Below are positions 3,995 to 61,042 of a stretch of DNA of 64,000 nucleotides, piece by piece. Within the stretch, counting starts at the first letter, position 1; the number at the start of each line of letters is the position of its first letter. The notes beneath the pieces are model-generated. The model was given only the letters and a program-made list of their open reading frames with translations. It was not told the DNA's origin and did not search any database. Position numbers and translations under genes: made by a program. Source of the stretch: Schizochytrium sp. TIO01 (Eukaryota > Sar > Bigyra > Thraustochytrida > Thraustochytriidae); assembly GCA_004764695.1 (NCBI GenBank), contig SMSO01000035.1, positions 1,734,001-1,798,000 of the forward strand, in the 5' to 3' direction.

Positions 3995-5960
3995 GATGGT
4001 GGTTGTTTTAGGATTTTAAAAGAAACGTCTGCGCAATGCTTGGCTTGCAACAGAGAGAAGTCAAGCTCGAGAGGACCACACTCAGAGCCGATCGTCTTAT
4101 TGAAAGCCGGGAACACGGTACCGCAGATAGCGCTGCTTTCGCACGCAAGCTGCGGCCCAAGACTCGCGAAGCAAGCATTCTTCGCCAGATCGTCCGGATA
4201 ATTTGACACAACGAGGCAATTAATTGGGTGCGACCGACGAATTTTTTAATAAATTATTTTTTTCATAAATTAAAGCAAAAAACATTATTTAAAATGAATT
4301 ATTTCCTGAATTGAAAGTTTAACTTTTAAATTATAAATAAATACATAAATACATAAATAAATAAGAAGAAAGTAAAAGAAAGAAACCATTCAGGGCCCGA
4401 GGAAATCAAGATCAGTTGACAATGCTGCCTCTTGAAAAAACGATATCCGACAGCGGCAAACTCCTTTTGGAGCAAGAATCTCTACTAATCCTCTTCGTCG
4501 AAGCTTGCCAGGGCAGATAATGCCGAGCAGCACACCGGCCGGCCCACGTACGAGAGAGAGGAGAGAGGATGAGAGCTGGAGTGAAGAAGCACTAGTTAGT
4601 TAGGTTTGTTAGTTTGTTTCTGAAGGGAATGAGGAATTTATTAGTAAGTTTCAATTTCAACCCCCATCGCAGGAAAAAGGATCATTGAATTCTGCCAAAG
4701 CAGTTCTTTCTTTCTTTCCAAAGTTCGTCAAAATCTTTGGATATCAGCCAGATCCTTTGAAGAGGGCAACCAAACACGCCCTGGGATCGCTGCCCACTGC
4801 CCACCCTGGAAAGTCCTCACCGCACTCACTCCAAGTGAGCGAATTGATTGCACGACCTTCAAGGCATCACGGCCAAGAAAAAGAAAGAAATTGGCATAGT
4901 TTTTAACCACCCGCCCGAAGAAAACTAGCATTCCAGGTCACTGGAAAAGCTTTGAGCGGCGAAGAAGAGCTATGAGATATAAATTGCAGATTTCCAGTTC
5001 GGTGTCTCGGAAAGCTAGCTCTGAAGAACCGTCTTCGCGAGCGCTCAGAGTCTCTCTAAGCCTTTAAGCACTCCGCGTCATCACTTCATCAATGCTGCGG
5101 CACCGCACAGAACGAATGTGTGGCTCTCCGCGTCCGCCCCGTTCTTTGTTTCACACAATGTAATAGGCGCTGCTTCCACGTGCTTATCCCACACGACCCG
5201 ACAATATTTTTCAGTTTGATTCCACGAGAACTGCGCCCGATCTGGTATCAAAGCACAAAGTACAGACTTCTGTACTGTGTCCCCTCTGTCTACTCTACTC
5301 CAGCGCCAATCCGGAGACAAGAACCCGACCTTCCAGTGCGCGCTCTCACGTCGCTCGCTCTCTACTGACGCTTAAAGCGTCGCTCGACAACCAGCGAGCC
5401 TTATGGCACTCTAGTGAACGATCGCGCGCACAACTCACCCAAACGATGCTTTAGGTTTTGGCATAGGATCGCCCTACGCCCCAGCCCATACATCGGTGCA
5501 CATAAACAAGGCTGCACGCGCCTGCCAAATTCTGTGTAAAAGTATGCATTCTACACCCGCGGCTGTGGAGGTAGCGTAGTCTTAATGGTTTTGCATAGAG
5601 GTGCAAATGGACTCTCGTTTTCTGTTAGATAGCAAACTGGTTTGGACTCTTGAGACATCATATTTATTCGTACACACGTTTTCACACGGCACATCATTGC
5701 AAGCCTCTGCGTCTTGGTCATAGACCTCTGCATCCTATCTTGACGTAGTCGCAGCTAGCACCAGCTGGTCTCCAAGCCTGTCTTTCAGGCATTTCATGCA
5801 GACAGTGCAATTGAAAGGAAGAAAGAGGGAGGCAGACTGTATCGCATACACGTGCTAAAATTCCTCTCTTTCGTGACGGTCATGAACTACAATGACTGCT
5901 ATCATCCTTTTATGCTTTACCATAGGAGTTTGCAATTGACCGCGATGATTGTGTGTTCAA

Positions 5961-8900
5961 ATGAAGAGTTGGAAAAGTACTGCGATCGATCGATCCTCCG
6001 CTGACAAAAAGCCTCTGGCAGCTCGCATAGAGCGGCATCTACGAGGTTGGTTGGGGAGAGCTGGCCTAGGTCCTCGTGGGCCTCACTCAATGCGTCCTGT
6101 GCGCTTGCGCAAGGGCGACAGGCTCTGGGTGCGCGATGATGACCTCGTGTGGCAAGAGGCCGTGCTCATGGGCCGCGCGTCTGGAGGCAGCGAGGGAGAC
6201 CGCAGCTCTAGCAGGAGCCGCAGCAGAAGCACTGCGTCAAGATCTAAGACTCGAAGTGGGTCTGTTGGCAGCCGGCATTCCGAAGGCGACGATACTGATC
6301 GACTGCTCGTGCAGCTGGGTTCCGACTGGAGCCGCGAGGCATCTGTGCGGTCGGTAAGCGCTAAAAGAGACTGCGAAGTACGCCTTGTCTCATCTAGCGC
6401 AGAACTTGCTGCCGTCGAAGACCTCACCCAGGTCCCTGCGCTACACGAGCCCTCACTTCTCGCCACCTTACACGAGCGCTTCAAAAATGACAGCATTTAC
6501 ACAAATGCAGGCCGTGTGCTCCTCGCAGTGAACCCTTACAAGCAAGTGAAAGGTGCGTACGGAAAATCTTTGGTTAAACAGTATTATAGGGCAGGAGCTG
6601 CAACGGAGGGTCTTGCTCCGCACCTCTACGCAGTTGCATCTACAGCGTATGTAAATGTTTTAGAGAAAAACGGCGTGAACCAGACGGTGCTTGTGAGTGG
6701 CGAGTCAGGCGCCGGCAAGACAGAGAGTACCAAGATCCTGCTCAGGGCCGTGACGCAAATGGCAGAATTCAGGCTAGGGAGCAGGTCGAGCAAAGATGGA
6801 AACAGCCCTAGAGATAGGAGCTCAAAGAAGCTCAAGAGCACACCAGAGATTTCTGACCGCGTGCTACAGGCGAACCCGATCTTAGAAGCATTTGGAAATG
6901 CATCCACTGTGAGAAATGAAAACTCATCAAGGTTTGGTAAACTAATTCAAGTGGCACTGAAACCAGTGCAAGGTACGCTTGAGGGAGCGAATATTACAAC
7001 ATATCTTCTGGAAAAGGCTAGGCTTACGCACCAGGGCACAGGCGAACGTAATTTTCACATTTTTTACGCCATGGCAGCAGGAGGATCGACAGAGGATATT
7101 GCAGACTGGAGACTGTATGATGACGGTAAGGGACTCGAGAGCTTTTCGTACATTTCAGACAGTGAGGCTATCCTGGACGAAGTCGAAGTCGACCGCAAGC
7201 GATTCGGTGCCGTGAAAGGCGCCATGAAGGTGCTCGGGTTCACACAAGAAGAAATCAAGTCAGTGCTTCAAGTTGTGGCAGGCGTGCTCCACCTTGGTAA
7301 TATCCGATTCTCTGGAGGTGCACGTGGAGAGGGTGCACGTGTTGCTTCTAAAGGCTCCTCAATGTTGGCGTGTGCTGCATGTTGTGATCTACTGGAGCTT
7401 GATGCTGATGCACTGGAAAGAGCCCTCTGTAAGCGTGTTATCCGTGTCAATGCCTCATCAAGCTTCTCCAGCAAACGCGAGCATGAGTCCTTTGAAAAAC
7501 CATTAACTGTTGAAGAGGCAGAAAGTGCACGTGATGCTCTGGCAATGACACTATATGAGCGTCTGTTTGCATGGCTGGTTTGGCGCATCAACCACAACCT
7601 TCGTGAAGGATGCTCCTCTGAAAGTCCTAGTGGTGACTCGGTTTCTTCCTTCAAATCTCGCAGATCCCAAAGCCCTGGCAGCAATCGACGTCTGAAATCC
7701 CCTGCAAGGACACCATTGGATGAGAATGGCGAGGAGATTTCCGGCCCAGTGCTACGAAAGAATTTTGAGATTGGTGTTCTTGACGTCTTTGGCTTTGAAG
7801 TTTTCGAGCAAAACGGCTTTGAGCAGCTCTGCATCAATTATTGCAATGAGCGTTTACAAAACCTCTTCAATGATTACGTTTTCATGCGGGATCAAAAGGA
7901 ATATAATGCTGAGGGAATTAACTGGGACTATGTAAACTTTCCAGAAAATAATTCTTGTCTGGAAATGATTGAATCACGCCCAATTGGACTTCTTGCTCTG
8001 CTTGATGAAAACTGCCTCTACCCACACGGTAATGACGAAAGTCTCATCAATAAGCTATACAATCATCTACCTCAACAATATGATCGCTTCATCAGTGCAT
8101 CCAAAAAGGATCGCGCCCATCTACGCTTTGCAATTCGCCACTTTGCAGGTGATGTCTTATACACAGCTACTGGCTTTACTAGAAAAAACAAGAATGAGCT
8201 TCGCCAAGAGGCAGTTGATCTCTTGAGATCATCTCGCGAACCAATTGTTAGCATGTTATGCCCATCGCATGCCGCTGATGCAGCTGGCGGAGCTGAGCTT
8301 GCTGATTTTTTTGATCAGCAACTTGGAGAACCCAGCAATGGGTCAACAGGTAAAAAGCTCACTTCTCTCTCATCGCTACGTGGTTTGAACGGACGCAGAA
8401 AGAGTAAAAGTGGACCCCAAACATTGCAACAGAAAACTGTGATTGCGCACTTCAAGGCACAACTTGACAATGCTTTGCAGACCATCGAGGCAAGTGAAGA
8501 GCACTTTGTTCGATGCCTGAAACCTAATGACGATGATGAACCAGGATACATGGATCGAGTTCGTCTTGTGGAACAGCTGCGCTATTCCGGAGTCTTGCAA
8601 ATGGTCCAGGTTGCCCGAGGTGGATATTCAACCCGGATGCTCTTTGATGAGTTTTTGCTTCGCTTTTGCACGCTACTACCCCTAGTATCTACAGAGCAGT
8701 CACCAACCGCAAACAATGGTCGTGTCTACTTTGGCACCCCAGCTCGTGCATACGCCACGATTCAGCGCTCGCCCCGCAAGGCACTTCAACGTTACTGCAA
8801 AGATCTCCTTCGTTGCTTTGGGTTCATTTATGGAGATGACTTTCAAACAGGTAAAACGAAAATCTTCTTACGGCAGCACAGTTTCACTTTGCTTGAACTT

Positions 8901-10436
8901 GCCAAAGATGCTGCTCGAGGTCGTGCCGCACGAACTATTCAACGCAATTCTAGAACATTTTTAGCTGAGCAAGCTCGCAAAAACGCTGCAATCAAAATTC
9001 AATGCATGGTTCGTGCACGAATTGCTCGTAATACACTCCGGCGAACTAGGGTTCGAAAGATATGGGCCGCACGAACGATCCAGGTTGCTGTTCTTAAATT
9101 CCTGGCTGCTATGCGTCGTGACCGCCGTCGACAAGCGCGTCAAGAACGCTCCAAACAGCAGAGGATTGCGCAGGAACTTGGTCTTGCACGATCCCCCATT
9201 GCAACACGAGTTACATTCGATCTGGCTAATCTTGAGGTTCGCCACATCGAATCTAGACACGACGATGTACCTTACACAGCACCATCAATTATTGTCCCTG
9301 CTCAGACCGAAGTTGAATCGCGCAGATTAGACTCCCCACCCCCACCTACTCAGGCAGAACTTACAGTCAATGTGGACTCCTTTTCTATTGAAGGTTTCGC
9401 AAAAGAAGATGCGGGCAAACTACAATCCCATTCTTCTCGTACGAACGGAAAGCAGCGTCGCTCTCGCCGTGGCTCCTTTGAACCAAATGAGCGGGAACCA
9501 ACTTTAGCAAGTGAAAACCGCGGATCATTTGATGAAGATGAAGACGAAGATGAATTTGAAGACAGCGAGTTCAGAAAGGATGACCCATACACCGGAGTCC
9601 CCGTGGAAACCCACAAGTCTAACAAAAAGAACAGGAAGAATAAAAATGGTGGCAAAAATGGGGCCACAGAAGAACAGCTGAAGGATAACAAACGCTCGGA
9701 CGATGGAAAGCAGAATAGTAACGAGATACCTCCAGGCGTTGACGAATCGAAGGAATTGAAAGACCGAGTGAAGCATGAAAACAACCCAGAGAGCCCTCGT
9801 CAGGGAGGCAAACCTTCTCAGTCAAAAGGACAGAAATCAAACCCCGGTAGTGACAGCGTGGCCGGCAACCCTACAAAGGAAGCCGTAGAATCAAAACTGG
9901 TCAACCGGAAAGGGAAAAACAACAACAACAATAAAAATACCAGACCTTCTGAAAGCGATAGCGACGATGATCTGGCAACTACTTCAGATGACGATTTTTC
10001 GGTGGATAGCGACTCCAAGACAAAAGATGGAATCAGCCGCAAGGCGCGAAGAACCTCATCACCTCAGGCTCGCCAATTTCTAACTGCTTTTATTGTTGTT
10101 GTTGTGGTCTTTCCAGTTGTCATCGGACTGGGTGGCCTTGACTTACTCATCACTCTGTCGATGCTTGGCCTGATGGGCGCATGGGTTTGGTTTCAAGTTG
10201 TCAAACCGAGAAACCGCAAAAGTGCAGATGACAGCGATTCTGATGATGATTCTGATGATGAAGATTCAAGCGATGATGAATCTGGTCTTTCCATGTCTGA
10301 GGATAGTGGAACAGACCAGCTACAGGCTGGGAAGAAAATGAAGAAAATGAAGGATGATAAGGGAGCGAAAAGGCCTTACCCAGGAAGGCTTCGGAGCACC
10401 AAATCTCAAGTGAATGGTAGGAAAACCAAAGTTTAA
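5961..10436 (+). CDS. Unconventional myosin with C-terminal hydrophobic (membrane) hairpin
   Basis: Actin-based motor of 1,491 aa if it starts at the first ATG (5961) after an in-frame TGA; a second candidate ATG is at 6090. Motor domain about residues 140-975: P-loop GESGAGKTES at 247-256, switch I NSSRFGK at 321-327, switch II DVFGFE at 608-613 followed by the relay-helix NYCNERLQ. Low-complexity Ser/Arg/Lys inserts lie after the P-loop and near 560-595. About 985-1055 is a neck with IQ-like motifs. No long coiled-coil rod is visible, so it is probably not a filament-forming class II myosin. The tail is charged, low-complexity and acidic, then residues 1373-1414 form a 42-residue hydrophobic stretch with a central GLGG turn, followed by an Asp/Ser block and a Lys/Arg end. 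I infer a membrane hairpin carrying the motor directly on a membrane. Motor identity is certain from motifs; class and cargo are unknown. Confidence 0.93.
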   Translation: MKSWKSTAIDRSSADKKPLAARIERHLRGWLGRAGLGPRGPHSMRPVRLRKGDRLWVRDDDLVWQEAVLMGRASGGSEGDRSSSRSRSRSTASRSKTRSGSVGSRHSEGDDTDRLLVQLGSDWSREASVRSVSAKRDCEVRLVSSSAELAAVEDLTQVPALHEPSLLATLHERFKNDSIYTNAGRVLLAVNPYKQVKGAYGKSLVKQYYRAGAATEGLAPHLYAVASTAYVNVLEKNGVNQTVLVSGESGAGKTESTKILLRAVTQMAEFRLGSRSSKDGNSPRDRSSKKLKSTPEISDRVLQANPILEAFGNASTVRNENSSRFGKLIQVALKPVQGTLEGANITTYLLEKARLTHQGTGERNFHIFYAMAAGGSTEDIADWRLYDDGKGLESFSYISDSEAILDEVEVDRKRFGAVKGAMKVLGFTQEEIKSVLQVVAGVLHLGNIRFSGGARGEGARVASKGSSMLACAACCDLLELDADALERALCKRVIRVNASSSFSSKREHESFEKPLTVEEAESARDALAMTLYERLFAWLVWRINHNLREGCSSESPSGDSVSSFKSRRSQSPGSNRRLKSPARTPLDENGEEISGPVLRKNFEIGVLDVFGFEVFEQNGFEQLCINYCNERLQNLFNDYVFMRDQKEYNAEGINWDYVNFPENNSCLEMIESRPIGLLALLDENCLYPHGNDESLINKLYNHLPQQYDRFISASKKDRAHLRFAIRHFAGDVLYTATGFTRKNKNELRQEAVDLLRSSREPIVSMLCPSHAADAAGGAELADFFDQQLGEPSNGSTGKKLTSLSSLRGLNGRRKSKSGPQTLQQKTVIAHFKAQLDNALQTIEASEEHFVRCLKPNDDDEPGYMDRVRLVEQLRYSGVLQMVQVARGGYSTRMLFDEFLLRFCTLLPLVSTEQSPTANNGRVYFGTPARAYATIQRSPRKALQRYCKDLLRCFGFIYGDDFQTGKTKIFLRQHSFTLLELAKDAARGRAARTIQRNSRTFLAEQARKNAAIKIQCMVRARIARNTLRRTRVRKIWAARTIQVAVLKFLAAMRRDRRRQARQERSKQQRIAQELGLARSPIATRVTFDLANLEVRHIESRHDDVPYTAPSIIVPAQTEVESRRLDSPPPPTQAELTVNVDSFSIEGFAKEDAGKLQSHSSRTNGKQRRSRRGSFEPNEREPTLASENRGSFDEDEDEDEFEDSEFRKDDPYTGVPVETHKSNKKNRKNKNGGKNGATEEQLKDNKRSDDGKQNSNEIPPGVDESKELKDRVKHENNPESPRQGGKPSQSKGQKSNPGSDSVAGNPTKEAVESKLVNRKGKNNNNNKNTRPSESDSDDDLATTSDDDFSVDSDSKTKDGISRKARRTSSPQARQFLTAFIVVVVVFPVVIGLGGLDLLITLSMLGLMGAWVWFQVVKPRNRKSADDSDSDDDSDDEDSSDDESGLSMSEDSGTDQLQAGKKMKKMKDDKGAKRPYPGRLRSTKSQVNGRKTKV

Positions 10437-11995
10437 GGAGAGGGCCCTTATTGAACATTGAAATACGGCCAAATTATTCTTAATCACGTTGGTTTGTGTG
10501 AACATGAGCGCGTCTTTTAAACGAACTCTATCTTTCTTTAATACGCTGGACAGAGGAATTGCAAGAAACTCTACCATGAACAAGGCTCTGCAATTGCTGA
10601 CGCACTGGATAAGCTATTACGATGCGAGTTGCCTCTTGTAGCGATGGCATTCCATAATACATAGCCACCTAAAATAATGCCTTTACCAGAAAGGCAACCT
10701 ATAAATTGAATACTTAATACTCTCGTGTAGTCTTTCCATGAACTATGAATATGCTCAATGCGGGCAGTTTCTGGACCATACATACACATGTGTGGCGGTC
10801 TCAATCGCATGCAATGCCGGCAACATTATTTAGGAAAATTATTTTTAAAAAAAGAAAGAAAGAAAAGATTAAGAAGACTGCATCCCTCAATACAGTAAAC
10901 ATCACAAAGCTAATGACTCGGTCCTTGTGGCATCTCTTCAAAGAAGAACTCAAGTCTAATTCGCGTCCCCAAAGCCATCTCCACCCGCTATCATGTGGTC
11001 ATCATCACACGACTCAACCTACTTGTGCTTCTCAGGTCCCGAACCCTGTTCGGTGCGCTAAAACACGGTGTTCTGAACAGCCCTACCAGTGTTAGCTTTC
11101 TTCCTAGCTGCCTCCAGTGCTACCAGAACCACTTTGCATTACCCTTTTGGCCACTCAGCCATTGTGGGTTAGTTGGGCATCTTCGATTGGCATCTCCAAT
11201 CGCGAGTGGCGATCTTGATCGACGCCCGAGTCCATGGCTCAATTTGGTCGGCTCCACGCAGGGAAGTGTCTGTGCTTTCCCGTTCTGCCTTGAGTTTCGC
11301 TCTTCAAGCCCGCCGTGCTTCGAGTTCTCCAGTTCCAAGGGCCGGGTCCTGCAGAAAGAACCGTCGCAAGCGGACCATCATTAGGGGCAGATAGGTAGGG
11401 GCTCATAGGAGAATCCTTAGCAGTCGAGAGCGCGTTGCAGAACCCAGGCAAACAGCCTTAAGGCAGTGGGTAGAGGTTAGGGTGGGGGTACCTAATTTGG
11501 CGTGGCTTAAGGCGACGAAAGGGTTCCGCAAGTGCCATACTGAGAAGATCGCGATCAACTCGAGGATGAGGTTTGATGCTAACTTTTGGACTTAAGGTTG
11601 GTTGGTTGATTGATTGACGGGGCGAGTGATCGATGGTTTTGCTGGCAAACACAAGCAATGCCGAAACCGAAGGCGGACGCCCAAAGAGGAATCAGAACAG
11701 CCGGGGCTTCGTGAGACCTTGTGCACGAGACCTTTGCGCAGCACATACATAAAGTGTGCACGAGCCAGCTGGTTGGGCACACTTGCACGTACGTACCTAG
11801 CTAGCTGCGTGGTAGATACCACGAAGCGGAACTTCGAAGCAGGAATCAGCAAATCCGATTGAAGTAGACACGGACGGGGAGGCCCATATATACATAGATT
11901 CAGGCCCTTGAAAACTTGCAGCAAATCCGAAACTAAGGTTGAGTGGGCATCGCATTTGACATTGTGCTTTGCGTCTTGATTGCAATATAGGGAAG
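10437..11995. other. Intergenic gap between myosin and PARP genes
   Basis: No supported gene. Several open frames of 60-160 codons occur on both strands but overlap one another in conflicting frames and show no domain. A GAAA run is at about 10849-10865, and a TATATA candidate lies close to the PARP start (listed). Confidence 0.6.
11886..11893 (+). promoter_or_regulatory. Possible TATA element of the PARP gene
   Basis: The sequence reads CATATATA about 105 bp upstream of the chosen PARP ATG. Spacing and composition would suit a TATA box, but AT-rich words are common in these spaces and no start site is known. Confidence 0.25.
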
Positions 11996-14485
11996 ATGGT
12001 TCGCAGGTCTTCTCGAGTTGCGTCAGCAACAGCAGTTGCAGGTGCTCCTGTGGCAACGAGGACCTCTGCACGTGTGAAGAAAATCAAAGAGGAGCAAACT
12101 TCGCCGGCGATCAAAGTGAAGCAAGAAGCCACTCCCTTGCCTTCTGCTGCGACCGTCACGAAGCGCAAGAGTACCCGAGCGAATGTGAACACTCCACAAA
12201 AGGGAGCGAAAAAAATCAAGGCTGAGACCTGCGGTCTCAAAGGTGTCGCTGGCCTCAATCTCAAGAACGGTGACGGGGTGAGTCCAGGTCTCGATGAAGG
12301 TTTTCTAGCCCAAGAACACGCTATGAACTTTGCTGAAGTTAAACGAGATGCTCGCCTTGTACGTATCGACCCAACGACGAACTCTGACAGTTACTACCTC
12401 ATTCAGGTGATTAAAAGCGGCCGCAAATTCATGTGCTGGCAACGTTGGGGCCGCACAGGAACCGCTGGGCAAGGTCGTCTTATGAGTGGTTCCCAGGCAA
12501 AGATGATCGCAGAGTTTGAGGACAAATTTGAGGAAAAAACAGGTGTAGCCTACCAGGATGCCCTGGATGGAGACACCAAGCCCATCCCTGGAAAGTACGA
12601 ATGGCTTTCATTGATGACTCGGGCACAAGCACTTGAGCAGCAAGGCGAATGGGAGTACTACGTTGATGATTTTGTTGATGGAAAGCCCACTGGCTGGTAT
12701 CCTTACGACGAGTGTGGAAGCAAATATGTCGAGGAGATTTACCGGGACCGCCACGTTGCACAAAATGTTAACATGTCTGTTCGCTTCGTCGAATCTGGCC
12801 ATTGGACATATCGAGTTGATCTTGGTGCCTCTGACGGCAACTTCACTCAAACCAATACATCCACAAACAAGACCCGTGTGATCCGTCGTATTGTCAATGG
12901 AACCCCGACAACCCAGCCTTCATCGCCAGCTACAGCGATTGCAAAACCTCAATCAGCAGCACTTAAGTCGATTGGACGAAACCTCTCTAATGCCTTGACA
13001 GGCGTTACAGTGGGAGCACAGCCTGTGCCCGCTGCCCTAAGTACAGAGATTCCTATTCAACCGAGCTGTGCTGGGTATGTAGGTTCTGGCACAAAGGTGC
13101 ACAAAGATTACGATGCAACTCTCAATCAAACCGATATCAAGAACAACAACAACAAGTTCTACTACATTCAACTTCTAGTAGATCTCACTGGGGACTACTT
13201 TGTATTCACAGCGTGGGGTCGTGTTGGTGAACCACCCAAGACTCAATTCCAAGGCCCTTTCGACGAGACCTCAGCAATTGCAGTCTTTGAAAAGAAGTTC
13301 AGCTCTAAGACGGGCAACCGCTGGGGTAATCGCAGCAACTTTGCAAAAATGTCTGGAAAGTATGATCTGATTCTGACAAAGGTTAGCACAAACACAAACA
13401 AGCCGGCGCCAAATGTAAAGGGGGAACCGGTCTGTTTCTCTCCCTCAAAGCTGGATGTAGACACACAAGAGTTTATTCGTTTCATCTTTGACAAGGATAT
13501 GTTCAAGGAGTCAATGGCAGAGCTGGATATCGATGTTGATAAAATGCCACTTGGAGCTTTGAGCGAAGCGCAAGTGCAACATGCTTACGATGTTCTTAAC
13601 CAACTTGAAGACGAAGTTAACGGACGTGCGCGTCAGAATGCTCTAACAGAGCTCTCCTCGCGGTACTACACTCTGATTCCTCATAACTTTGGCCGACGGC
13701 GCCCGCCTGTCATCAACTCTCAGGCTATGGTGCAAAAGGAGTATGATCTTGTCAACGTGATCGGCGACATCGAAAAAGCGCAGAGTATCATCAAGGAGTC
13801 TGATGAAAAACAAGCGATACAGACTGTGAACCCACTAGATGCAAAGTTCGACTCTCTCAAAATGGAGGATTGGGAAGTTGTAGCACCTAAGTCAGATCTC
13901 TTTCGTCGCTTGAACTCTTATGCTCTCGCAAGCAAGGGATATCGTAAGATGCGCTTGCAGAAGATCTTCAAAGTCGGGCGAGAAAATGAAGACAGCACTT
14001 TTAAACAATACGATGGGCTTGATCGCATGCTCCTGTGGCATGGTACAAATGTTGCTGTAGTAGCTGCAATTCTCAAGTCAGGTCTGCGCATTATGCCACA
14101 CTCAGGTGGAAGAGTAGGCGCAGGCATTTACCTCGCCACTGAGCACAGCAAATCCAGTGGTTACACCTCTGGGGCACGTTGGAAGGGTCACAACCTCGGA
14201 GTCATGTTCCTGGTGGAAGCGGCTGTGGGGAAATCAAAAATTATTCACCAGGACGACCCTCGTCTTAAAGCAGCGCCAAAAGGCTTTGATTCTGTACTGG
14301 CAAAGGGCTGTCAAAGTCCAATGGGAACAGGTGATGAGTTCATTGAAATTGACGGTCGAAAGGTCACCATTCCTGCTGGAGCAATTAATCCTACTGGTGT
14401 ACAGAGCAGCTTTACACAGGATGAGATGCTTATCTACAACGAGAAGCAGCATCGTTTGCGTTTTGTTCTTGTTTTTGAAATGTAA
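11996..14485 (+). CDS. Poly(ADP-ribose) polymerase, WGR-WWE-WGR-PRD-catalytic
   Basis: Nuclear ADP-ribosyltransferase, 829 aa from the ATG at 11996 (GAAG before ATGG); nothing upstream starts with ATG in this frame. Residues 1-75 are Lys-rich, like a nuclear/DNA-binding leader. A WGR domain spans about 108-203 (QRWGRTG at 149-155). A WWE-like domain spans about 216-300 (GEWEYYVDDF, then GWYPYDE, ending in a TRVIRRI stretch). A second WGR domain spans about 360-465 (AWGRVGE). The helical regulatory domain is about 485-617. The catalytic domain runs from about 623 to the end with the full H-Y-E triad: His682 in LLWHGT, Tyr712 in GAGIYLA, Glu810 in QDEML. The triad predicts poly- rather than mono-ADP-ribosylation (known for the family). 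There is no zinc finger or BRCT, so it is closest to PARP2/PARP3-type enzymes with a duplicated WGR and an inserted WWE. Likely role: DNA-break response. Confidence 0.93.
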   Translation: MVRRSSRVASATAVAGAPVATRTSARVKKIKEEQTSPAIKVKQEATPLPSAATVTKRKSTRANVNTPQKGAKKIKAETCGLKGVAGLNLKNGDGVSPGLDEGFLAQEHAMNFAEVKRDARLVRIDPTTNSDSYYLIQVIKSGRKFMCWQRWGRTGTAGQGRLMSGSQAKMIAEFEDKFEEKTGVAYQDALDGDTKPIPGKYEWLSLMTRAQALEQQGEWEYYVDDFVDGKPTGWYPYDECGSKYVEEIYRDRHVAQNVNMSVRFVESGHWTYRVDLGASDGNFTQTNTSTNKTRVIRRIVNGTPTTQPSSPATAIAKPQSAALKSIGRNLSNALTGVTVGAQPVPAALSTEIPIQPSCAGYVGSGTKVHKDYDATLNQTDIKNNNNKFYYIQLLVDLTGDYFVFTAWGRVGEPPKTQFQGPFDETSAIAVFEKKFSSKTGNRWGNRSNFAKMSGKYDLILTKVSTNTNKPAPNVKGEPVCFSPSKLDVDTQEFIRFIFDKDMFKESMAELDIDVDKMPLGALSEAQVQHAYDVLNQLEDEVNGRARQNALTELSSRYYTLIPHNFGRRRPPVINSQAMVQKEYDLVNVIGDIEKAQSIIKESDEKQAIQTVNPLDAKFDSLKMEDWEVVAPKSDLFRRLNSYALASKGYRKMRLQKIFKVGRENEDSTFKQYDGLDRMLLWHGTNVAVVAAILKSGLRIMPHSGGRVGAGIYLATEHSKSSGYTSGARWKGHNLGVMFLVEAAVGKSKIIHQDDPRLKAAPKGFDSVLAKGCQSPMGTGDEFIEIDGRKVTIPAGAINPTGVQSSFTQDEMLIYNEKQHRLRFVLVFEM

Positions 14486-19183: not shown

Positions 19184-19933
19184 AGAGTATATTGAGGCAA
19201 GGGAGCGGCGGAGGAGGCGCTTGGGCCCAGCAGACGGCGATCCTCGAGGGCGCCACGCCCGCCAGGTGACGCGAAGCAGTTCTTCGCTGGATCGAGATAG
19301 CGACTTCGGAGGAAGCTCGCGGTCTCTGGGGTGTCTAGAATCGGATTTTCGGCCTTGCCTGCGTTGAAGGGGCTTAAACTTCCTCACTCGCTGTGTTTCA
19401 TCGATTTGTTCGATCATTCCTTCGTCGTTAGCGCTTTTTAATTTTTTTCCGGAGCCAACTTTGAGGTTGGTACCTTGGGTTTCTGTTTTCTCCTACTAGT
19501 ACCGCTTTGTTGACTGTGTGTGTGCGGGCTTGCGCTTGCTTGCTAGTGTTCTTGCTTGCTGCTTTGCTGGTCTTTGCTTGACCAGCCTGTACCTCTATCT
19601 ATCGGTCTTCAGCACTTCAAGTATCGAGATCAACTGATCTTTGGTACGTTTAAATATAGACAAGAATAGGAAATAGAGATATTTTTCAATAAGATCCACT
19701 CCGGGGTTGAAAGGCGCTATCATTGGGATCAGAATCTTTAAACTCAAACTTTAGGTGAATATCAAGTAAATAGTCATCACAGAAAGTTGGGGTCATTTTC
19801 TGCAAAGTAGAGCAGGAAGCAACTAAGTGGCTTTTTGCTCAGATCGCATCCTTAACTAAATACTTCGTGCAAGGTTTGCAGCTTCAATCTTTGCGATCGT
19901 AGATCCATAACTAGTTACTAGCCGCGTGTGAAA

Positions 19934-22900
19934 ATGTCGACTGAAGCTGAGACCACTGCGAATGCAGTGAAGGACGAGGATGTCAAGATGGAAAATGGCG
20001 TTGGAGAGCTCAAGAACCTTGAGGAGGTTGTGGAGGTCTCATTCTTGCTGTGGCTTGTACTTTCAAGCACAACCTTCAAAATGAAGCAACTCTCGCCCAA
20101 GATGCTTGAAATGGGCTTGAACGCGCCCCATACGAGTGTGCTCATGTCCAGCACGCACACGATGCTGTTGCTTCCCTTAAAAGAGATTACACGGCTCGAG
20201 AAGGAAAGTCGAGGCAAGCACACCCGAATTATGGAGAAGCCCTACGAGTGGTGGACTCATGAGCTGCAACAAGTCGTGCGGCAATGGATCGTGGAGCGTC
20301 GTGACTTAGCTTACGACCTCGCTCGTATGGAGGATAGCGACGAGGACAGCGAGTACAACGAGGAGACTGTGCAGGCCCTCAAGGACTCTATTCGAGATCT
20401 CGATGAGCTTCTTACCCCTATCCTGGACCACCCTGTTCCAGTTCTTAAGGATCTTGAAGAAGACCTTAAAGAGCGCGGCGAATACCAGGACGATGATGAA
20501 GATGACGAAGACGAAAACGATAGCACAGGTACTTCAGGAGACCAACCCAAGACCGAAGCTGACGGCGATGGTGATGCCAACATGCAAGACAGCATTCAGA
20601 AGCAGGATGGAGACTCTTTTAGCAAGTCTAAACCTAGCAAGCCTTCCCGTGAGGAGCTTGAGGCTGACAAGGAGGACCGCGACAATATGAAAATCGACTC
20701 CATTATGCCTTTTAGCGGGCCCGACGGGTACCTATGTTTGGATCCTGTGAAGCGACTCTTTCTGTTGCGGTCTCTCTGTGTTTGGCGTGCCAACGGAAAC
20801 CCCGAACCCTCGGTACAGAATCGTCTTCGCGAGCACAAAAACGCAGACATGCGCATGAAGCCCATTGGAGAGGACAAGCATGCCCGCAGGTACTACTACT
20901 TCCCTCAGTTCTATCGCGATTGCCGCATTTACCGTGAAACACCGGGAGACGGTGGTAAGGAGAAAGAAGAGGCAGCGAGACTGCTTCGTGAGGAAAAGGA
21001 GCGCAAGAAGAAGGAGAAGGAAGAAGAGGCCAAAAGAAAAGCTGAGGCCAAGGCAGAAGCCAAAAGGGCCAAAGAGGAAGCAGAAAAGGCAGCTAAGGCT
21101 GAGAAAGAAGCCAAAGCAAAGGAAGCTAAAGCCAAAGCCGAGAAGAAGCAGAAGGAGTCAAGGAAATCCATTGCCACCCCGAGAAGATCAAGCTCGAGGC
21201 GTAGGTCGCAACCGGAGAGATTTGAAGATGAACTCGCACAAGAGCACCAGAAAAAACAGGAAAAGCAAGCCAGAAGACAGTCGCTGAGATCGAGAGGAGG
21301 TCGTAAATCTCTCGCAGACAGTGACGAAGAAGATGAAGATGAGAACGAAGAGGACAGCGAGGATGAGAATGGGGAAGATCAAAGTGAAAAGGATAGCGAC
21401 GCAGAAGATAGCGACGCAAGCCCGCCCGCAAAGAGAGGTCGAGGACGCCCGAAGAAACGCGCGGCGTCAAGATCTGCGAAAAAGCGTGGAAGACCTGCTA
21501 AGAGAGGAAGACCTGCCAAGAGGGGTCGTAAGGCCAATAAGGATAGTGAAGACGACACTGACGAAGAGAACGTCGAGAAGGACAGCTCTGATGAAGAGAT
21601 TGAAGAAGAGGACGAGGAGGAAGAAGAAGTTAGGGGCAGAGGAAGAGGCCGTGGCAGGGGCAGGGCGAAGAGTAAGAGCCAGACGAGAACCAAAAGCAAA
21701 AGCCAAAAGAACGCCAAGCGAGCAGTGAAACGTGACGAGAAACGGCGACTCGTGTACATAGGCCCCGAGCCAAAGGCCGAGAAGTGGGAGCTGGTCGCAG
21801 AGGGCGCAGAAGAGCTTAGGGCGCTGATGGAGGAGCTCGAGAGTGAAAAATCAAAGCATAACAAGGAGCTCTTGGAGGAACTCGAAAAGGCGCTCACGGT
21901 CATGGAGGAAGAGGCGGAAAACATCCGCAAAGAACAAGCCAAAATCGAGAGAGAACAAGTTCTACAAGCAATGCCACGCAAACGGTCCTCGCGAATCCAA
22001 ATGGCAGAAGAACGACGCAAAGAAGAAGAGGCCAAACGTCTTGAAGAAGAGGAGCTTCGACGCCAAGAAGAGGAGATCCAGGAGGCCCGTCGACGAAGGC
22101 AAGAAGAGATTCGGAAACAAGAAGAACGCCAGCAACGCATGCGTGAACGGGAACTGGCCAAAGCTGAAGAGCAGCGTCGTAGGATTGAGGAGCGAGAGCG
22201 CCGCGCCGAAGAACAGCGCAAGAGAGCAGAGCGCTTGTCTGCAGATAATCGCGGTGCCCCAGACAGTGAGGTGGAAGGCAACAACGCTGAGCAGGCAACA
22301 ACCCAGATGTCTACGCCGTCCAATGCGGCTGCATCGGCGCTCAATGGCGGTGGCTCACCTGCTGCTCCTACGATTGGACAGCAGCAGCAGCAGCCATCAT
22401 CATTTGCACAAAATGGCAAAATGCCAGTGTCTAGTTTTGCAAGCTTGCAGTCCCCAGTGATGAGGGCTACTCCGCAGATCAATGGCACACCTGCTCCTGC
22501 ACAACAGACTGTGACTCCTGCATCTGGAGTGCAACCTCCACAAAACCCCGCATTGGTTGTTGTTACTACAGGAACTACCCCCGCGGTTGCTGCTGCTCCT
22601 GCTGTTGCTCCTGCTTCTGCTCCTGCTGCTGCTCCTGCTGCTCCTGCTGCTACTGCTGTTCCTGTTGCTCCTGCTGCTCCTGCTGCTGCTGCTGCTGCTC
22701 CTGTTGCTCCTGCTGCTGCTGCTGCTGCTCCTCCTGCTGCTGCTGCTGCTGCTCCTCCTGCTGCTGCTGCTGCTGCTCCTCCTGCTGCTGCTGCTGCTGC
22801 TCCTCCTGCTGCTGCTGCTGCTGCTCCTCCTGCTGCTGCTGTCCCTGCTCCACAGGCTACGCCTGTGGCAGCTGCTCCAGTACCTACTCCAGTATCAGCT

Positions 22901-23086
22901 CCAACCCTTGTACCAGCTCCGACCCCTGTGCAAGTACCGGCTCCTATGCCAGCAAAAGTGCCAAGCTTGGTAAACGTTGGCAATGCATCAACTGAACAGG
23001 GAAAGCCTGCTGTCCAAGAAGTCATCCAACCTTCAACTATTGCAAATGGTGGAGATTCGACAAATGCAAACTCAGAAACAAATTAA
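19934..23086 (+). CDS. DDT/WHIM-domain, AT-hook chromatin-remodelling accessory protein
   Basis: Predicted nuclear protein of 1,050 aa from the ATG at 19934. A DDT-like helical region lies at about 35-90 (FLLWLVLSSTTF, then LHTM-type helices). A WHIM-type motif follows at about 260-325, ending KPIGEDKHARRYYYF, which matches the 'G-D-..-R-YY' signature of ISWI-partner proteins such as RSF1, ACF1 and WSTF. Basic/acidic low complexity surrounds AT-hook motifs at about 500-535 (GRGRPKK, KRGRPAKRGRPAKRGRK) and an RG-repeat at about 567-580. A coiled coil rich in Glu/Arg spans about 612-770, and the C-terminal 170 residues include a Pro/Ala minisatellite. No PHD finger or bromodomain is present, unlike RSF1 or WSTF. 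In the known families DDT plus WHIM contacts an ISWI ATPase and linker DNA. The exact orthologue is uncertain. Confidence 0.75.
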   Translation: MSTEAETTANAVKDEDVKMENGVGELKNLEEVVEVSFLLWLVLSSTTFKMKQLSPKMLEMGLNAPHTSVLMSSTHTMLLLPLKEITRLEKESRGKHTRIMEKPYEWWTHELQQVVRQWIVERRDLAYDLARMEDSDEDSEYNEETVQALKDSIRDLDELLTPILDHPVPVLKDLEEDLKERGEYQDDDEDDEDENDSTGTSGDQPKTEADGDGDANMQDSIQKQDGDSFSKSKPSKPSREELEADKEDRDNMKIDSIMPFSGPDGYLCLDPVKRLFLLRSLCVWRANGNPEPSVQNRLREHKNADMRMKPIGEDKHARRYYYFPQFYRDCRIYRETPGDGGKEKEEAARLLREEKERKKKEKEEEAKRKAEAKAEAKRAKEEAEKAAKAEKEAKAKEAKAKAEKKQKESRKSIATPRRSSSRRRSQPERFEDELAQEHQKKQEKQARRQSLRSRGGRKSLADSDEEDEDENEEDSEDENGEDQSEKDSDAEDSDASPPAKRGRGRPKKRAASRSAKKRGRPAKRGRPAKRGRKANKDSEDDTDEENVEKDSSDEEIEEEDEEEEEVRGRGRGRGRGRAKSKSQTRTKSKSQKNAKRAVKRDEKRRLVYIGPEPKAEKWELVAEGAEELRALMEELESEKSKHNKELLEELEKALTVMEEEAENIRKEQAKIEREQVLQAMPRKRSSRIQMAEERRKEEEAKRLEEEELRRQEEEIQEARRRRQEEIRKQEERQQRMRERELAKAEEQRRRIEERERRAEEQRKRAERLSADNRGAPDSEVEGNNAEQATTQMSTPSNAAASALNGGGSPAAPTIGQQQQQPSSFAQNGKMPVSSFASLQSPVMRATPQINGTPAPAQQTVTPASGVQPPQNPALVVVTTGTTPAVAAAPAVAPASAPAAAPAAPAATAVPVAPAAPAAAAAAPVAPAAAAAAPPAAAAAAPPAAAAAAPPAAAAAAPPAAAAAAPPAAAVPAPQATPVAAAPVPTPVSAPTLVPAPTPVQVPAPMPAKVPSLVNVGNASTEQGKPAVQEVIQPSTIANGGDSTNANSETN
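22724..22845 (+). repeat. 24-bp coding minisatellite (PPAAAAAA)n
   Basis: Inside the DDT/WHIM gene, four to five copies of CCTCCT followed by six GCT codons encode PPAAAAAA. Irregular GCT/CCT codons extend back to about 22590. The codons are almost pure, which suggests recent slippage. The run is also open as poly-Leu on this strand and as Gln/Glu on the other. Confidence 0.9.
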
Positions 23087-55116: not shown

Positions 55117-57810
55117 CGTTCTATACGCAGAAAGTCGCCGCGCTCGGATCTGTCTAACGTCTGTTGATGGGTTGCGCGATGGACAAGACGTTGGCGAGTT
55201 CTTTGATCTTGAACTTCTTTTATTTGGGTCCTATGAGAAACCATAGAAGTCACTTTCGCAATAGGTATTAGTAAAATTACTGAATAGGTTATCTTAAAGA
55301 ATAGTTATAAGCTGAAAGGAGCGAAGAGACCAATGATATTTAAGGACTTGCTATACGCTATGAAAAAGACCGTCATTGTTTCTAAAAACGGGCTTTTAAC
55401 TTCCTGTAAACTAGTTGCCAAAGAATTCGTATATATATGTTACATATTTTTTCATTTGCTTTCGGTTGAGAACGCAGCTAGTTTTCTTCAAGTATGATGC
55501 AGACTTGTGAAGAGAACATTAATATACTATGAGCTTAGACTCTGCCAATTCATGAACGCTGCCTCTAGACACAAATTTCTAATTGTAGTTTTGATCTCTA
55601 GTTTAATTCCATTAACACAGAACAACTTTCCATAAAAAATTAACGAAACACTATTCTAATTCAACTCCACAAACACATACCCCTCCCCGTTAAATACTAC
55701 GCATACAGGCTTGGTATTTCCCTCTGAAACTCTGAAATTTTCATAAATGAAGAGAAAAGTGCTCTAATTTCGGTGTGCGTCCATCTTATGTCATTCTTAC
55801 CAAAACAGAATCCAACATAGCGAAACCGGCTGAGAAAGAATTGACCAGTAGCTTGGCTGTTGTCAACACAGCGCCGCACCAAGCTGTTACATAGATCGGA
55901 ACATTAAAGTATCAAATTACGGCGAGGTAGGACGTAGAAAACCACTTATTGAAGCAGATGTGAAGAATCTGATTAGATTTATTTAACTCTGTAGTGCCAA
56001 AAACTAAATCTTTATTGTTCGACATAAGCAATTTGGATAGATGAGATAAATCTCACTGAGTATGGAATGACGAAGCAATCGATGTGATCGCTCGGTAAAC
56101 ATGAACGTATAGTTGTGATACGATCATTTAAAATTGAAGATTGCAAATATATATATTATTCGGATGGATCTACGAGAAACAAGACATCAGGCATTGCTGC
56201 ATACGCTCGCCATAGCCCTGATGATCATATTCGAGCAGAGTTTAAATAAGTAACACGATTTACCTATACTCTCAAGAAGCTTTAGATTTAGAAATTGATA
56301 CGTTTGCATTCATGTACTTGAGGTTCACTAGCCGCAATTCTATATCACAGGATTTCTCAAATCGCAACCTCTCACAAGTGCCTTGAATAATTATACTATC
56401 ATGTCTGAACAACTTCGTGATTTAGGATCTCTTCAAGTTCCAGCCTGTATAATGTTCAGATACACAGGTTCGGGAGACCGCTTTGGTATTGGGGAATTCC
56501 AGGCCTTCAGTCCTGGATCCAAGCCCGGATATTTCTCGTTTCTGATGTTCTAGATTTAGTTCATAGAAGCCAAAAGTCCAGCTAACATGTCACATCCTTT
56601 GGGTTCAGGCTCTGTCCGGGGCAGATGGGCTATCTGTTCGTTGACAACTTTCCATTGCGCCGGAACATGTGTATCGCGACCAACTTTTTCAGAAGAACCA
56701 TGGCATCATAACTCTTGTTTAATTTCTGAAATTATATCAGCGACCTCAGATGCGTGACCCGAGCGCTTTCGAATTTTCAATCATTCCTCTTTCTGTCAAA
56801 ACCGCATCATAGCACGAACTTCGTGGACCTCCCATTCCAAATCAATGTCCGCAGGTGCAATCTGGATGTCCCACTAACTAGTAATTAGAGGTAGGCACTC
56901 CTATTGGCCCTTTTATCTGCTTGTAAAAACCTATATAAATACCAACACAGAATGTTCTTTACCTTTTTTTAATTGTTGGGTACGAATTTACCTGTTAAAA
57001 ATATACAGGATATATACAATTTTATAAATTAAAAACTAAAGTTGATTTTATAATTAAATAAATAAAAAGTAAAGTTCCACAATTTTCAACAAACTTAGTA
57101 TATGCTATGTACTACTTTCCGAACAGATACTGCGGGACTTGATAGATAGCCACAAACCCGTACAATGGAACATATTACGTTGAAACAATATTAAAAAATG
57201 TATGAAACTGCACAGTGAGCTTAGCGGAGGTCCCATGAACAAGTGCGTTGTCCTTGCATTGAGACTCTTTGAGATTAGGTAATATTATTTCTTAAAATCA
57301 ACCGTCACGTTCGTTAAGGATTCTTCTTAGTCGTTAACAAAATAATCCAAAAAATTCTTGTCTGTCACACACCAACAGTCACGGGAACGGGGCTACGGAG
57401 GGTCTCGGGGAAAAAATAAGGATGTCAGTCATGCCGATCTAATAACTATTATATTCTCTGTGTTTTCAATAAAGGACTAAAATATTACGTTTAAAACAAT
57501 TAGTTGTACTATAACCCCCCTTGTCATGCTTTCCACTATCGTGTCCCTTAGTTTCGTTTGTTTATTTCGCCTTTTAAAAAAAAGGCGATAGCTCGATTGC
57601 GAACACAATCGTCTAGCAGGTTTCCTTTCGCTCCCTTTTAGGGATATGTTGTGGAATGCTTGGCAGCAAAAACATAACACGACAGCTCGCGGGATCTGGC
57701 TGGTTAAGTTTATTAGCGTCTGAGGCGCCTTGAGCCTTAGTACAGAGGTTAAAACTAAGCAAAGTGGCGCATTGAATTCAGCAGACAAACAAGTAAATAC
57801 ATAGATTAAC
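55117..57810. other. Divergent intergenic region with retroelement trace
   Basis: 2.7 kb, strongly AT-rich, between the ankyrin-SAM (-) and sulfatase (+) genes. The only recognisable content is a short RNase H-like remnant at 56127-56310. Other frames (for example 55697-55882 and 57477-57899 on the minus strand) have no features. Confidence 0.55.
56127..56310 (+). mobile_element. Degenerate RNase H remnant of a retrotransposon
   Basis: One frame reads KYIYYSDGSTRNKTSGIAAY, then a DDHIRAEFK segment before TAA at 56247. The Y-(T/S)-DGS opening, the central G-A-YA and the RAE match type I RNase H of LINE-like elements. After a frame slip the text resumes as TIYLYSQEALDLE, which fits the 'I-(D)-SQ-AL' motif with the catalytic Asp replaced by Tyr. 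The middle of the domain appears deleted. No reverse transcriptase motif or terminal repeat was seen nearby, so it is an old fragment. Confidence 0.5.
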
Positions 57811-59484
57811 ATGAAGTTAGGCAAATCTAAGAGAAGATCTGGCCTCTTCACCAAGAGGCTTTTTACTAGCGTACTAGTTCTTCTCATGAGCTTGGACAAC
57901 CTTGCCGGTGTAGCTGCTGTTGCAAAGCCGAACGTGTTGTATGTGCTTTTTGATGACCTGCGACCAACAGTAGGGTCATATGATGATGATGTTGCAAAAA
58001 CTCCCTATTTGGATGCATTTTTTGCTCAGAGCGTTCAATTTGATAACATGCATTCGAGTAAAGCAGAATGTGCCCCGTCACGCGCGTCAATGATGGCTGG
58101 GCAAAGGCCTGATCGCATTCGAATCTGGGATTTTAAACCGAAATTCCGTAAAAACAATCCGAAACTGGTCACATTACCTGGTCATTTCCGGAAAGCTGGA
58201 TACCGCACTGTCATGGTTGGCAAAGTATACGATAATCGAAGCTTTTACAAGACGTCAAAAAAGGGAACCAAGACGGTGAAGCCTGCTCCTGACTTGTGTA
58301 ATACTAAGAGGCCTAAAAAGGAGTGCTCGTGGGACTCTGGTATTGTTAAACAGGCTATCCAAGTAAACCAAAATGATATGTGTCAAAACAACGGTACAGA
58401 GTATTTCCCTGGATCAGGTGCATCTGATCCATATGACCAACATCTACATTTGGCCTACTCATATGATGACGCTTTTCAATCTAAAGATCAAGATTATTGT
58501 GTAACCTCAGTTGCGATTCAGCAGCTTGAGACTCTTGCCGCTGCAGGAGAGCCGTTTTTCTTGGCTGTAGGCATTGTCAAACCCCATCTCCCATGGGTTA
58601 GACCACAATCCATTGCCGACCATTTTGCTGCACTTCCCGATAGCGATTTTGAAGTTCCTTCGTACAATTCTACTTACTGGAAAGATACACATGTTCGTTG
58701 GTCCAAATCCAACAGCGCAGAACTTAGTTCTTATGATGACTATGCATCTTACTCGGATGTTGATCGTGTCCGTGGATATTATGGAGCCACAACATTTGCT
58801 GATGAGCAATTTGGCCGTTTATTAGGCGCTCTCGACGCCATGCCGATTGCCAACAACACTTTTGTTATTGTGTGGGGAGATCATGGATTTCATCTAGGAG
58901 ACCGGGATTTGTGGGGCAAAAAAACAATCTTTGATCAGGCCACCCGCGTTCCCTTCGGAATTCGGCCTGCTGAAACATGGTTAGCTGATAATCAAGATGT
59001 CGCAAACAATGGAATTGGGGCGCGGGTCTTAGCGCCCACTGATTCTGTAGATATTTTGCCCACATTGCTTGATTTATGCAATATTGACCTTCCTTCGCTT
59101 TCAGATCGTGCTGGGGCTTCAATGGTTCCCTTAATGCGCAATCCAGCAGGTTCTATTCGAGCTGCTGCAATCTCGCAGTACGAGGCATATTCTGTCAGAA
59201 ACTACATGGGCTATTCTATTCGTAGCAGCAATTACCGGCTCGTTCTTTACGCCAAGGAAAGGAAATTGAACAGTAAGAACCGCAAAGTTCTTCCTTACAA
59301 AAAGAGCGTGGACTCAAGCCGTCTTGCTCTATATTACTATGACGAACCCGGCCAAATTGAGCTCGTAAATCATGTTAACGACCCGACACATGCAGCAGCA
59401 TATGCAGAGCTTTTGCAGCTCTTCAAGCAGAATAAGGATCGCGATTGGACTCATCTAATTGGTGTCAAACCTTTTGACCTTTGA
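57811..59484 (+). CDS. Secreted sulfatase, iduronate-2-sulfatase-like (copy 1)
   Basis: Sulfate-ester hydrolase, 557 aa, ATG at 57811. A basic N-terminus and hydrophobic stretch (about 15-37) form a signal peptide, so it acts outside the cell or in the endomembrane/lysosomal system. Metal ligands are in LFDDLRPT (Asp48-Asp49). The formylglycine signature CAPSR starts at Cys87 (ECAPSRASMMAGQRPDR), where a formylglycine-generating enzyme would oxidise the Cys. A further active-site segment near 355 reads WGDHGFHLGDRDLWGKK, as in IDS-type sulfatases. The order LFDDLRP, CAPSR, DHG matches iduronate-2-sulfatases, including those of marine bacteria, but the substrate cannot be told. The gene is one of a tandem pair with the copy at 61043; both share the C-terminal DRDWTHLIGV phrase. 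A role on sulfated polysaccharides is plausible. Confidence 0.9.
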   Translation: MKLGKSKRRSGLFTKRLFTSVLVLLMSLDNLAGVAAVAKPNVLYVLFDDLRPTVGSYDDDVAKTPYLDAFFAQSVQFDNMHSSKAECAPSRASMMAGQRPDRIRIWDFKPKFRKNNPKLVTLPGHFRKAGYRTVMVGKVYDNRSFYKTSKKGTKTVKPAPDLCNTKRPKKECSWDSGIVKQAIQVNQNDMCQNNGTEYFPGSGASDPYDQHLHLAYSYDDAFQSKDQDYCVTSVAIQQLETLAAAGEPFFLAVGIVKPHLPWVRPQSIADHFAALPDSDFEVPSYNSTYWKDTHVRWSKSNSAELSSYDDYASYSDVDRVRGYYGATTFADEQFGRLLGALDAMPIANNTFVIVWGDHGFHLGDRDLWGKKTIFDQATRVPFGIRPAETWLADNQDVANNGIGARVLAPTDSVDILPTLLDLCNIDLPSLSDRAGASMVPLMRNPAGSIRAAAISQYEAYSVRNYMGYSIRSSNYRLVLYAKERKLNSKNRKVLPYKKSVDSSRLALYYYDEPGQIELVNHVNDPTHAAAYAELLQLFKQNKDRDWTHLIGVKPFDL

Positions 59485-60158: not shown

Positions 60159-61042
60159 AGAGGTTTTATTACTGTTAGTTACATTAGGATCATTGTTTTT
60201 TTAGTTTCTGATTTTTTATTTAAAAGAAACCATAGAAGAATATTTCTTTTTAATTTAAAAAGAGCTCCTGCAGACGCTCTTTTTTTGGTCGCAGCAGTTG
60301 TTCTCACGAGTGCTGAGAGCACTACTGAGAAGAAGAAGCCTGTGCTCAGGCAATCTTTCTTGCACAGGGCCTGCCCACCATTGCACATCTTTGCACGCAC
60401 GCTGCACCACGATGACCTGGAGGAGGTAGATAAACAGATACCTGCCTAGTTGTTGGAATGCTTGGTGAGATTGGTGTGCAAGCAATCCTCCGCGTACCAC
60501 ATTTTATTTGTTAGAACAAGTAAACGAGTCAATCAATCGAGAAATCAGAAACGATAAATCAATAGGAGAGCGTTGACAGGAATCCATCTGCGCTCACTGC
60601 GCCTCCTACTTGATAGTGAGTGCCATTGTTTCCACAAGAAGGACAAACCCGAGGCCTTGAAACAAAAGGCGGGGAACCTGACTGAGGACGAGCAGGATTC
60701 TTCGCATGCCGTTTCCTTTTGTAAAATAGCGAGGCAGTTTGTAGATTGAAAGACGAGATCATTCGTACCACAAAAAGGAAATAAAACACCGTACTAGGCA
60801 CTAGGAACCCATTAGCACCATGGCACGGACCACGGACCTCCACATTGTTTATTTATTTGTTTGTTTTGTTTGTTTGTTTGTTTATTTGTTTACCTCTCTA
60901 GAGAGCTAATGTTGGAATTTTTAAAGAAAGAAGTAAGGTGTCAGGTTAGATAATAACATACGAACGGATGTAGAACAACTTGAACGGAGTGGAGAATCAG
61001 CTCTGCATCAAGCAAAACCCAAACCAGAGCCTCTCCTGCAAC
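59485..61042. other. Spacer between the two sulfatase genes
   Basis: About 1.5 kb with a (CAAT)n run at 60127-60155 and a (GTTT)n-type run at about 60845-60890. Open frames at 60018-60500 and 60559-60843 have no recognisable features. There is no trace of a third copy. Confidence 0.6.
60127..60155. repeat. Tetranucleotide microsatellite (CAAT)n
   Basis: About seven copies of CAAT. It has the same unit as the array at 3711-3765. Confidence 0.9.

Follow-up and report, generated by a model that had tools for sequence, protein, structure and literature searches.

The window, i.e., the whole 64,000-nt stretch of DNA that was analyzed, contains a frame on the plus strand that runs uninterrupted from position 5949 to 10436 (1,495 codons from stop to stop in the ORF listing). 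The first Met, with its ATG at nucleotide 5961, gives a myosin heavy chain of 1,491 amino acids, as in the original prediction. In the protein, the motor is followed by a neck, which is short, then by a charged linker, a hydrophobic stretch, and a 77-residue end with acidic and basic blocks. The features are as follows:

5961–10436, plus strand: myosin heavy chain gene, one unbroken frame, 1,491 aa (ORF and translation)
6123–6161, plus strand: LWVRDDDLVWQEA motif near the N-terminus (motif reading; similar motifs in two paralogs, L017 and L037)
6414–8873, plus strand: myosin motor domain (Pfam PF00063, best stretch from residue 156; PDB matches)
6699–6722, plus strand: P-loop GESGAGKT (motif search)
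6915–6941, plus strand: switch-1 NENSSRFGK (motif search)
7782–7799, plus strand: switch-2 DVFGFE (motif search)
8916–9119 (limits approximate), plus strand: neck, two IQ-like motifs plus a third that is weaker (Pfam and motif search; the third by eye)
9129–10076, plus strand: charged linker, 316 residues, Ser/Asn-rich (composition)
10077–10139, plus strand: hydrophobic segment 1, FLTAFIVVVVVFPVVIGLGGL (hydropathy, insertion energy)
10143–10202, plus strand: hydrophobic segment 2, LLITLSMLGLMGAWVWFQVV (hydropathy, insertion energy)
10203–10226, plus strand: basic flank KPRNRKSA adjoining segment 2 (sequence reading)
10227–10280, plus strand: acidic Ser/Asp block (sequence reading)
10332–10373, plus strand: basic block KKMKKMKDDKGAKR (sequence reading)

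The motif at 6123–6161 resembles the myosin SH3-like domain. The motor matched PF00063 with an E-value of 3.6e-189 in the Pfam scan, and PDB entries matched it at residues 151–553, 605–777, and 830–918; a low-complexity insert of approximately 50 residues lies ahead of switch-2. The P-loop, switch-1, switch-2, and converter (GKTKIFLR, last residue 975, found intact by motif search) were all present in the motor, which assigns the protein to the myosin superfamily and bears out the original prediction of a complete motor. A Glu residue occurs 16 residues before the DALA sequence of the motor, and under the TEDS rule, Glu at this position favors motor activity that is independent of phosphorylation. 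As judged from its sequence, the motor is probably ordinary and active. A short IQ neck had also been proposed: the neck is short, with two loose IQ matches at positions 997 and 1017 of the protein (motif search), but as an IQ neck it is weak, the Pfam IQ match (9.1 bits, E-value 1.6) lying below the cut-off of 20.3.

The 316-residue linker that follows is, from its composition, probably disordered. Behind it, nucleotides 10077–10202 encode residues 1373–1414 counted from the first Met (1377–1418 from stop to stop), FLTAFIVVVVVFPVVIGLGGLDLLITLSMLGLMGAWVWFQVV, exactly where 42 hydrophobic residues had been predicted. They form two blocks, with runs of 22 and 20 residues free of D, E, K, and R and a single Asp between them. 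Their mean Kyte–Doolittle hydropathy was 2.14, whereas the maximum among 2,000 shuffled versions of the entire protein was 1.49 (0 of 2,000 reached 2.14); likewise, the best 19-residue mean was 2.79 in the stretch, compared with a maximum of 2.67 in 2,000 shuffles, and the best 19 residues elsewhere in the myosin reached 1.29. Because its hydropathy exceeds that of all 2,000 shuffles, the hydrophobic stretch is not a chance product of composition. The 20 residues ahead of it contain seven K/R and one D/E, and KPRNRK lies right behind it, with acidic sequence afterwards; the acidic block and the basic block expected after the stretch were both found in the translation. As a guess, phosphorylation of the acidic Ser/Asp block could control its use as a site for sorting or binding.

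A search of the organism's own genome (64.06 Mb, 37 contigs) for myosin heads yielded 67 match pieces. Forty-six loci were examined for myosin ORFs, of which 43 gave one and three (L044, L045, and L046) gave none under the motif filter; the 43 paralogs and this gene formed a comparison set of 44 myosin ORFs, of which 17 are truncated where the DNA read stops and 27 have closed ends. The three highest 40-residue hydrophobic means among the 44 belonged to this gene (2.08), L037 (1.89), and L036 (1.54), the fourth being 1.09, and the best 19-residue octanol values of the same three were −11.2, −11.8, and −11.8, respectively, the next among the 44 being −8.6. All three hydrophobic stretches lie past the neck, and they stop 77 (this gene), 173 (L037), and 123 (L036) residues short of the C-terminus. 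These tails align in composition and position, with no clear sequence identity, and the order of hydrophobic tail, basic flank, acidic block, and basic end is common to this gene and L037. A hydrophobic stretch of the kind originally noted in a single myosin recurs past the neck in the close paralogs L036 and L037, and the presence of a similar layout in two paralogs raises the value of the observation.

In a quick tree of all 44 motors, this gene grouped with L017 (SH-aLRT 100), and the pair was joined by L036 and L037 (SH-aLRT 99); 20 of the 41 inner branches of this tree were weakly supported, and there were three long-branch warnings, none within the four-motor clade. A careful tree of 27 chosen motors (17 omitted) recovered the pair of this gene and L017 at 100/100 and the four-motor clade at 100/99 (bootstrap/SH-aLRT), and L001 and L009 were the sister pair to this clade in both trees. 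Hydrophobic tails occur in three of the four members, the fourth, L017, having been read in part: the frame of this closest motor ends at 1,126 aa, charged sequence stays open in a different frame as far as the locus boundary, and no hydrophobic stretch was found in the part read up to that point. Under random placement of the three tails over the 27 closed-end ORFs, the chance of all three falling within the clade would be 0.0014, a rough figure in that the clade was picked for study after the tails were known. Because 17 of the 44 ORFs are cut, hydrophobic tails may also exist outside the clade.

Several minor observations concern the myosins of this genome (G000), which number at least 44 ORFs (L001–L043 and this gene). 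The frame change in L017 (G000:C33, 3298996–3304323) may stem from an indel in the assembly or from an intron, or the gene may be broken. In L041 (G000:C31, 2410354–2412574), the motor matches change frame over an overlap of a few bases, like a pseudogene or an assembly indel. The L009 ORF (G000:C24), a 2,477-residue frame read in part, has a single borderline hydrophobic segment at residues 1148–1171 (insertion energy +0.29). The tail fragments of 30 of the 43 paralogs were scanned with Pfam, and they contained MyTH4 (L011 and L018), RCC1 repeats (L015), and PH (L020), with TPR (L034) and RhoGEF (L029) matched below the cut-off.

Outside this genome, the motor alone as a query gave no pattern match in the viral contigs, and an alignment of the four motors gave 131 pattern matches there, of which none was confirmed. 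The same alignment gave 71 pattern matches in the prokaryote genomes and two confirmed loci, both in one Verrucomicrobiaceae MAG, where myosin pieces lie at L047 (JAIYDP010000472.1) and L048 (JAIYDP010000149.1). Both loci match several other myosins of the present genome equally well or better, and the matches lie in separate pieces, the ORFs examined being those of L047. We judged both loci uninformative about the tail; they are most likely contaminant protist DNA.

Insertion of the hydrophobic stretch into a membrane was evaluated with a Hessa-type formula with hand-entered constants; a glycophorin A control gave −0.75, and a second control, 4 Leu in 15 Ala, gave +0.4 compared with an expectation of approximately 0. 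With these constants, the predicted insertion energy was −0.76 for residues 1377–1400, the lowest in the 44 myosin ORFs, and +0.42 for residues 1398–1415. The paralogs gave weaker values with the same constants, namely, +0.28 for the one segment of L037 and +1.05 and +1.70 for L036. On the octanol scale, the two segments of this gene scored −10.3 and −11.2, and the second segment scored −8.1 in L036 and just −0.5 in L037. The tail segment probably sits directly in a membrane, as these predictions suggest. Single-sequence AlphaFold models showed one continuous helix, which spanned 46 residues when the 149-residue tail was modeled (pTM 0.24) and 47 residues for a 61-residue piece (pTM 0.48), and neither model showed a hairpin. 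A straight helix of 46–47 residues is longer than a single membrane crossing allows, so either it bends, it stays at the membrane surface, or the prediction is mistaken. For this gene, the probable topology is a hairpin whose two ends are cytosolic, in keeping with the basic residues that flank the stretch on both sides; this positive-inside argument is not valid for all members, since the front flank of L037 has four K/R versus nine D/E and the flanks of L036 are weakly charged.

Most of the studied myosins contact membranes through lipid-binding domains or adaptors. The original prediction named chitin synthase fusions as the known exception, which was wrong, and took a directly inserted motor to be a distinct class, which is not established: a transmembrane domain at the C-terminus was described in 2007 for the stramenopile myosins of class XXIX (Odronitz & Kollmar 2007; PMC2375034). 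In the sections of that study that concern this class, members are reported from every stramenopile species sampled at the time, the proteins are described as having three IQ motifs and as many as 18 CBS domains, besides PB1 and a transmembrane domain at the C-terminus, and myosin classes are defined by motor phylogeny (PMC2375034). The present protein resembles class XXIX in its myosin motor, short neck with weak IQ motifs, and putative C-terminal transmembrane domain, and chitin synthase is unmentioned in those sections. It differs in that neither CBS nor PB1 was listed for it in a Pfam scan with E-values up to 10, nor in the Pfam results for the scanned L036 and L037 tails, the comparison being one of domain descriptions. 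The three IQ motifs of the class correspond here to a Pfam IQ match below the cut-off, two loose matches, and a third seen by eye, and its transmembrane domain corresponds to the hydrophobic stretch with predicted energies of −0.76 and +0.42.

The chitin-synthase myosins, namely, class XVII of fungi and class-36 of molluscs, annelids, and rotifers, are likewise described, in the relevant parts of the sources, as having membrane segments (PMC3942036, PMC2375034, PMC5583752). They share with the present protein a motor joined straight to membrane-spanning segments, but these myosins include a chitin synthase, and the animal ones have many transmembrane segments, whereas no chitin synthase domain was listed in this myosin in the Pfam scan. 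In part of a further source, Myo19 is described as a Miro-interacting myosin with three IQ motifs, whose MyMOMA domain has a putative monotopic insertion (PMC9929473). The likeness lies in a motor with direct membrane contact through a tail segment; the difference is that Myo19 has MyMOMA and Miro, whereas in the present protein a stretch of 42 hydrophobic residues lies close to the C-terminus and MyMOMA was not listed for it in the general Pfam scan. Because class XXIX, the chitin-synthase myosins, and Myo19 are known from these sources, the idea of a directly membrane-held myosin is not new. What is added here, with no priority claimed, is a paralog group within one genome with a short-tailed layout, in which CBS and PB1 were unlisted in the three scanned tails.

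As the best explanation, we consider it fairly probable that these genes form a paralog group of C-terminally membrane-anchored myosins, likely held by a hairpin, whose motor pulls its own membrane. The gene product would be a myosin motor and an integral membrane protein at once. Its 42-residue C-terminal stretch would enter an intracellular membrane or the plasma membrane as two short helices, and the motor, the linker, and the acidic and basic C-terminus would all remain in the cytosol. The flexible linker of approximately 316 residues would then allow the motor to reach nearby actin and pull the membrane without an adaptor. In this genome, the group would comprise four related motors, three or more of them with such tails.

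This explanation presupposes that the stretch is translated. The hydrophobic stretch, or its first part, might instead be an in-frame intron missing from the protein, as an acceptor-like AG ends at 10116 with 11 pyrimidines in the 15 positions ahead of it, and four of the five upstream donor-like GT sites listed are in matching phase. The genome nevertheless looks intron-poor because Pfam and myosin-head matches span single open frames: nine of the 10 neighboring ORFs scanned (picked by length) had a Pfam match in one open frame, eight of them above the curated cut-off, and 29 of the 67 myosin-head pieces span at least 600 of the 679 profile positions in one frame. GC3 is also alike in the motor (0.43), linker (0.43), stretch (0.45), and C-terminus (0.38), and hydrophobic stretches recur at the equivalent position in two paralogs. 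With these single-frame matches, the even GC3, and the two paralogs, we judged an intron within the tail to be very improbable.

If the stretch is translated, it might enter the membrane monotopically or anchor the protein hydrophobically at the surface, in the way suggested for Myo19 (PMC9929473, in the part describing its putative monotopic insertion), rather than form two spanning helices. Blocks of just about 20 residues, a very short turn, the marginal second segment (+0.42), and the continuous AlphaFold helix are in keeping with such an anchor, but the energy of segment 1 (−0.76) nearly equals that of the glycophorin A control (−0.75), and both segments also have octanol values that speak for spanning (−10.3 and −11.2), and we regard this alternative as unlikely. 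Slightly more credible, though still doubtful, is that the protein is a diverged class-XXIX myosin, or close kin of that class, in which the C-terminal transmembrane domain was retained while CBS and PB1 were lost, which would be compatible with a membrane-anchored paralog group. The position of the anchor agrees, and the class was present in all stramenopiles sampled in 2007, according to the sections concerned (PMC2375034); against it, CBS and PB1 are unlisted for this protein and for the L036 and L037 tails, and the host is only presumed to be a stramenopile.

More ambitiously, and only as a tentative proposal, the membrane-anchored group may be a lineage-specific clade of integral-membrane myosins, apart from class XXIX and the chitin-synthase myosins, in which the motor is the membrane protein of its cargo. 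The clade would have expanded within one protist to three or four paralogs, each carrying a compartment of its own along actin with no need of an adaptor. A motor anchored in the bilayer could not leave its cargo by adaptor switching and would thus offer a simple system for actin-driven membrane movement, with the paralog set supplying three or four natural versions for comparison. If the host is a labyrinthulomycete, as we suspect from its genome size, base composition, seeming paucity of introns, and abundance of myosins, these myosins would be candidates for movement in its actin-containing ectoplasmic network; a source on this network reports that it contains actin and that its protein inventory is still in progress (PMC12221091).

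Elsewhere in the window, positions 11960–14485 encode, in a single open frame, a protein of PARP type whose domains are WWE, WGR, regulatory, and catalytic (Pfam), and positions 19922–23086 encode a protein with long Ala-Pro repeats (PPAAAAAA units) in its C-terminal part. Two adjacent sulfatase-like ORFs lie on the same strand at 57805–59484 and 60974–62767, the first recognized by Pfam and the second by eye.
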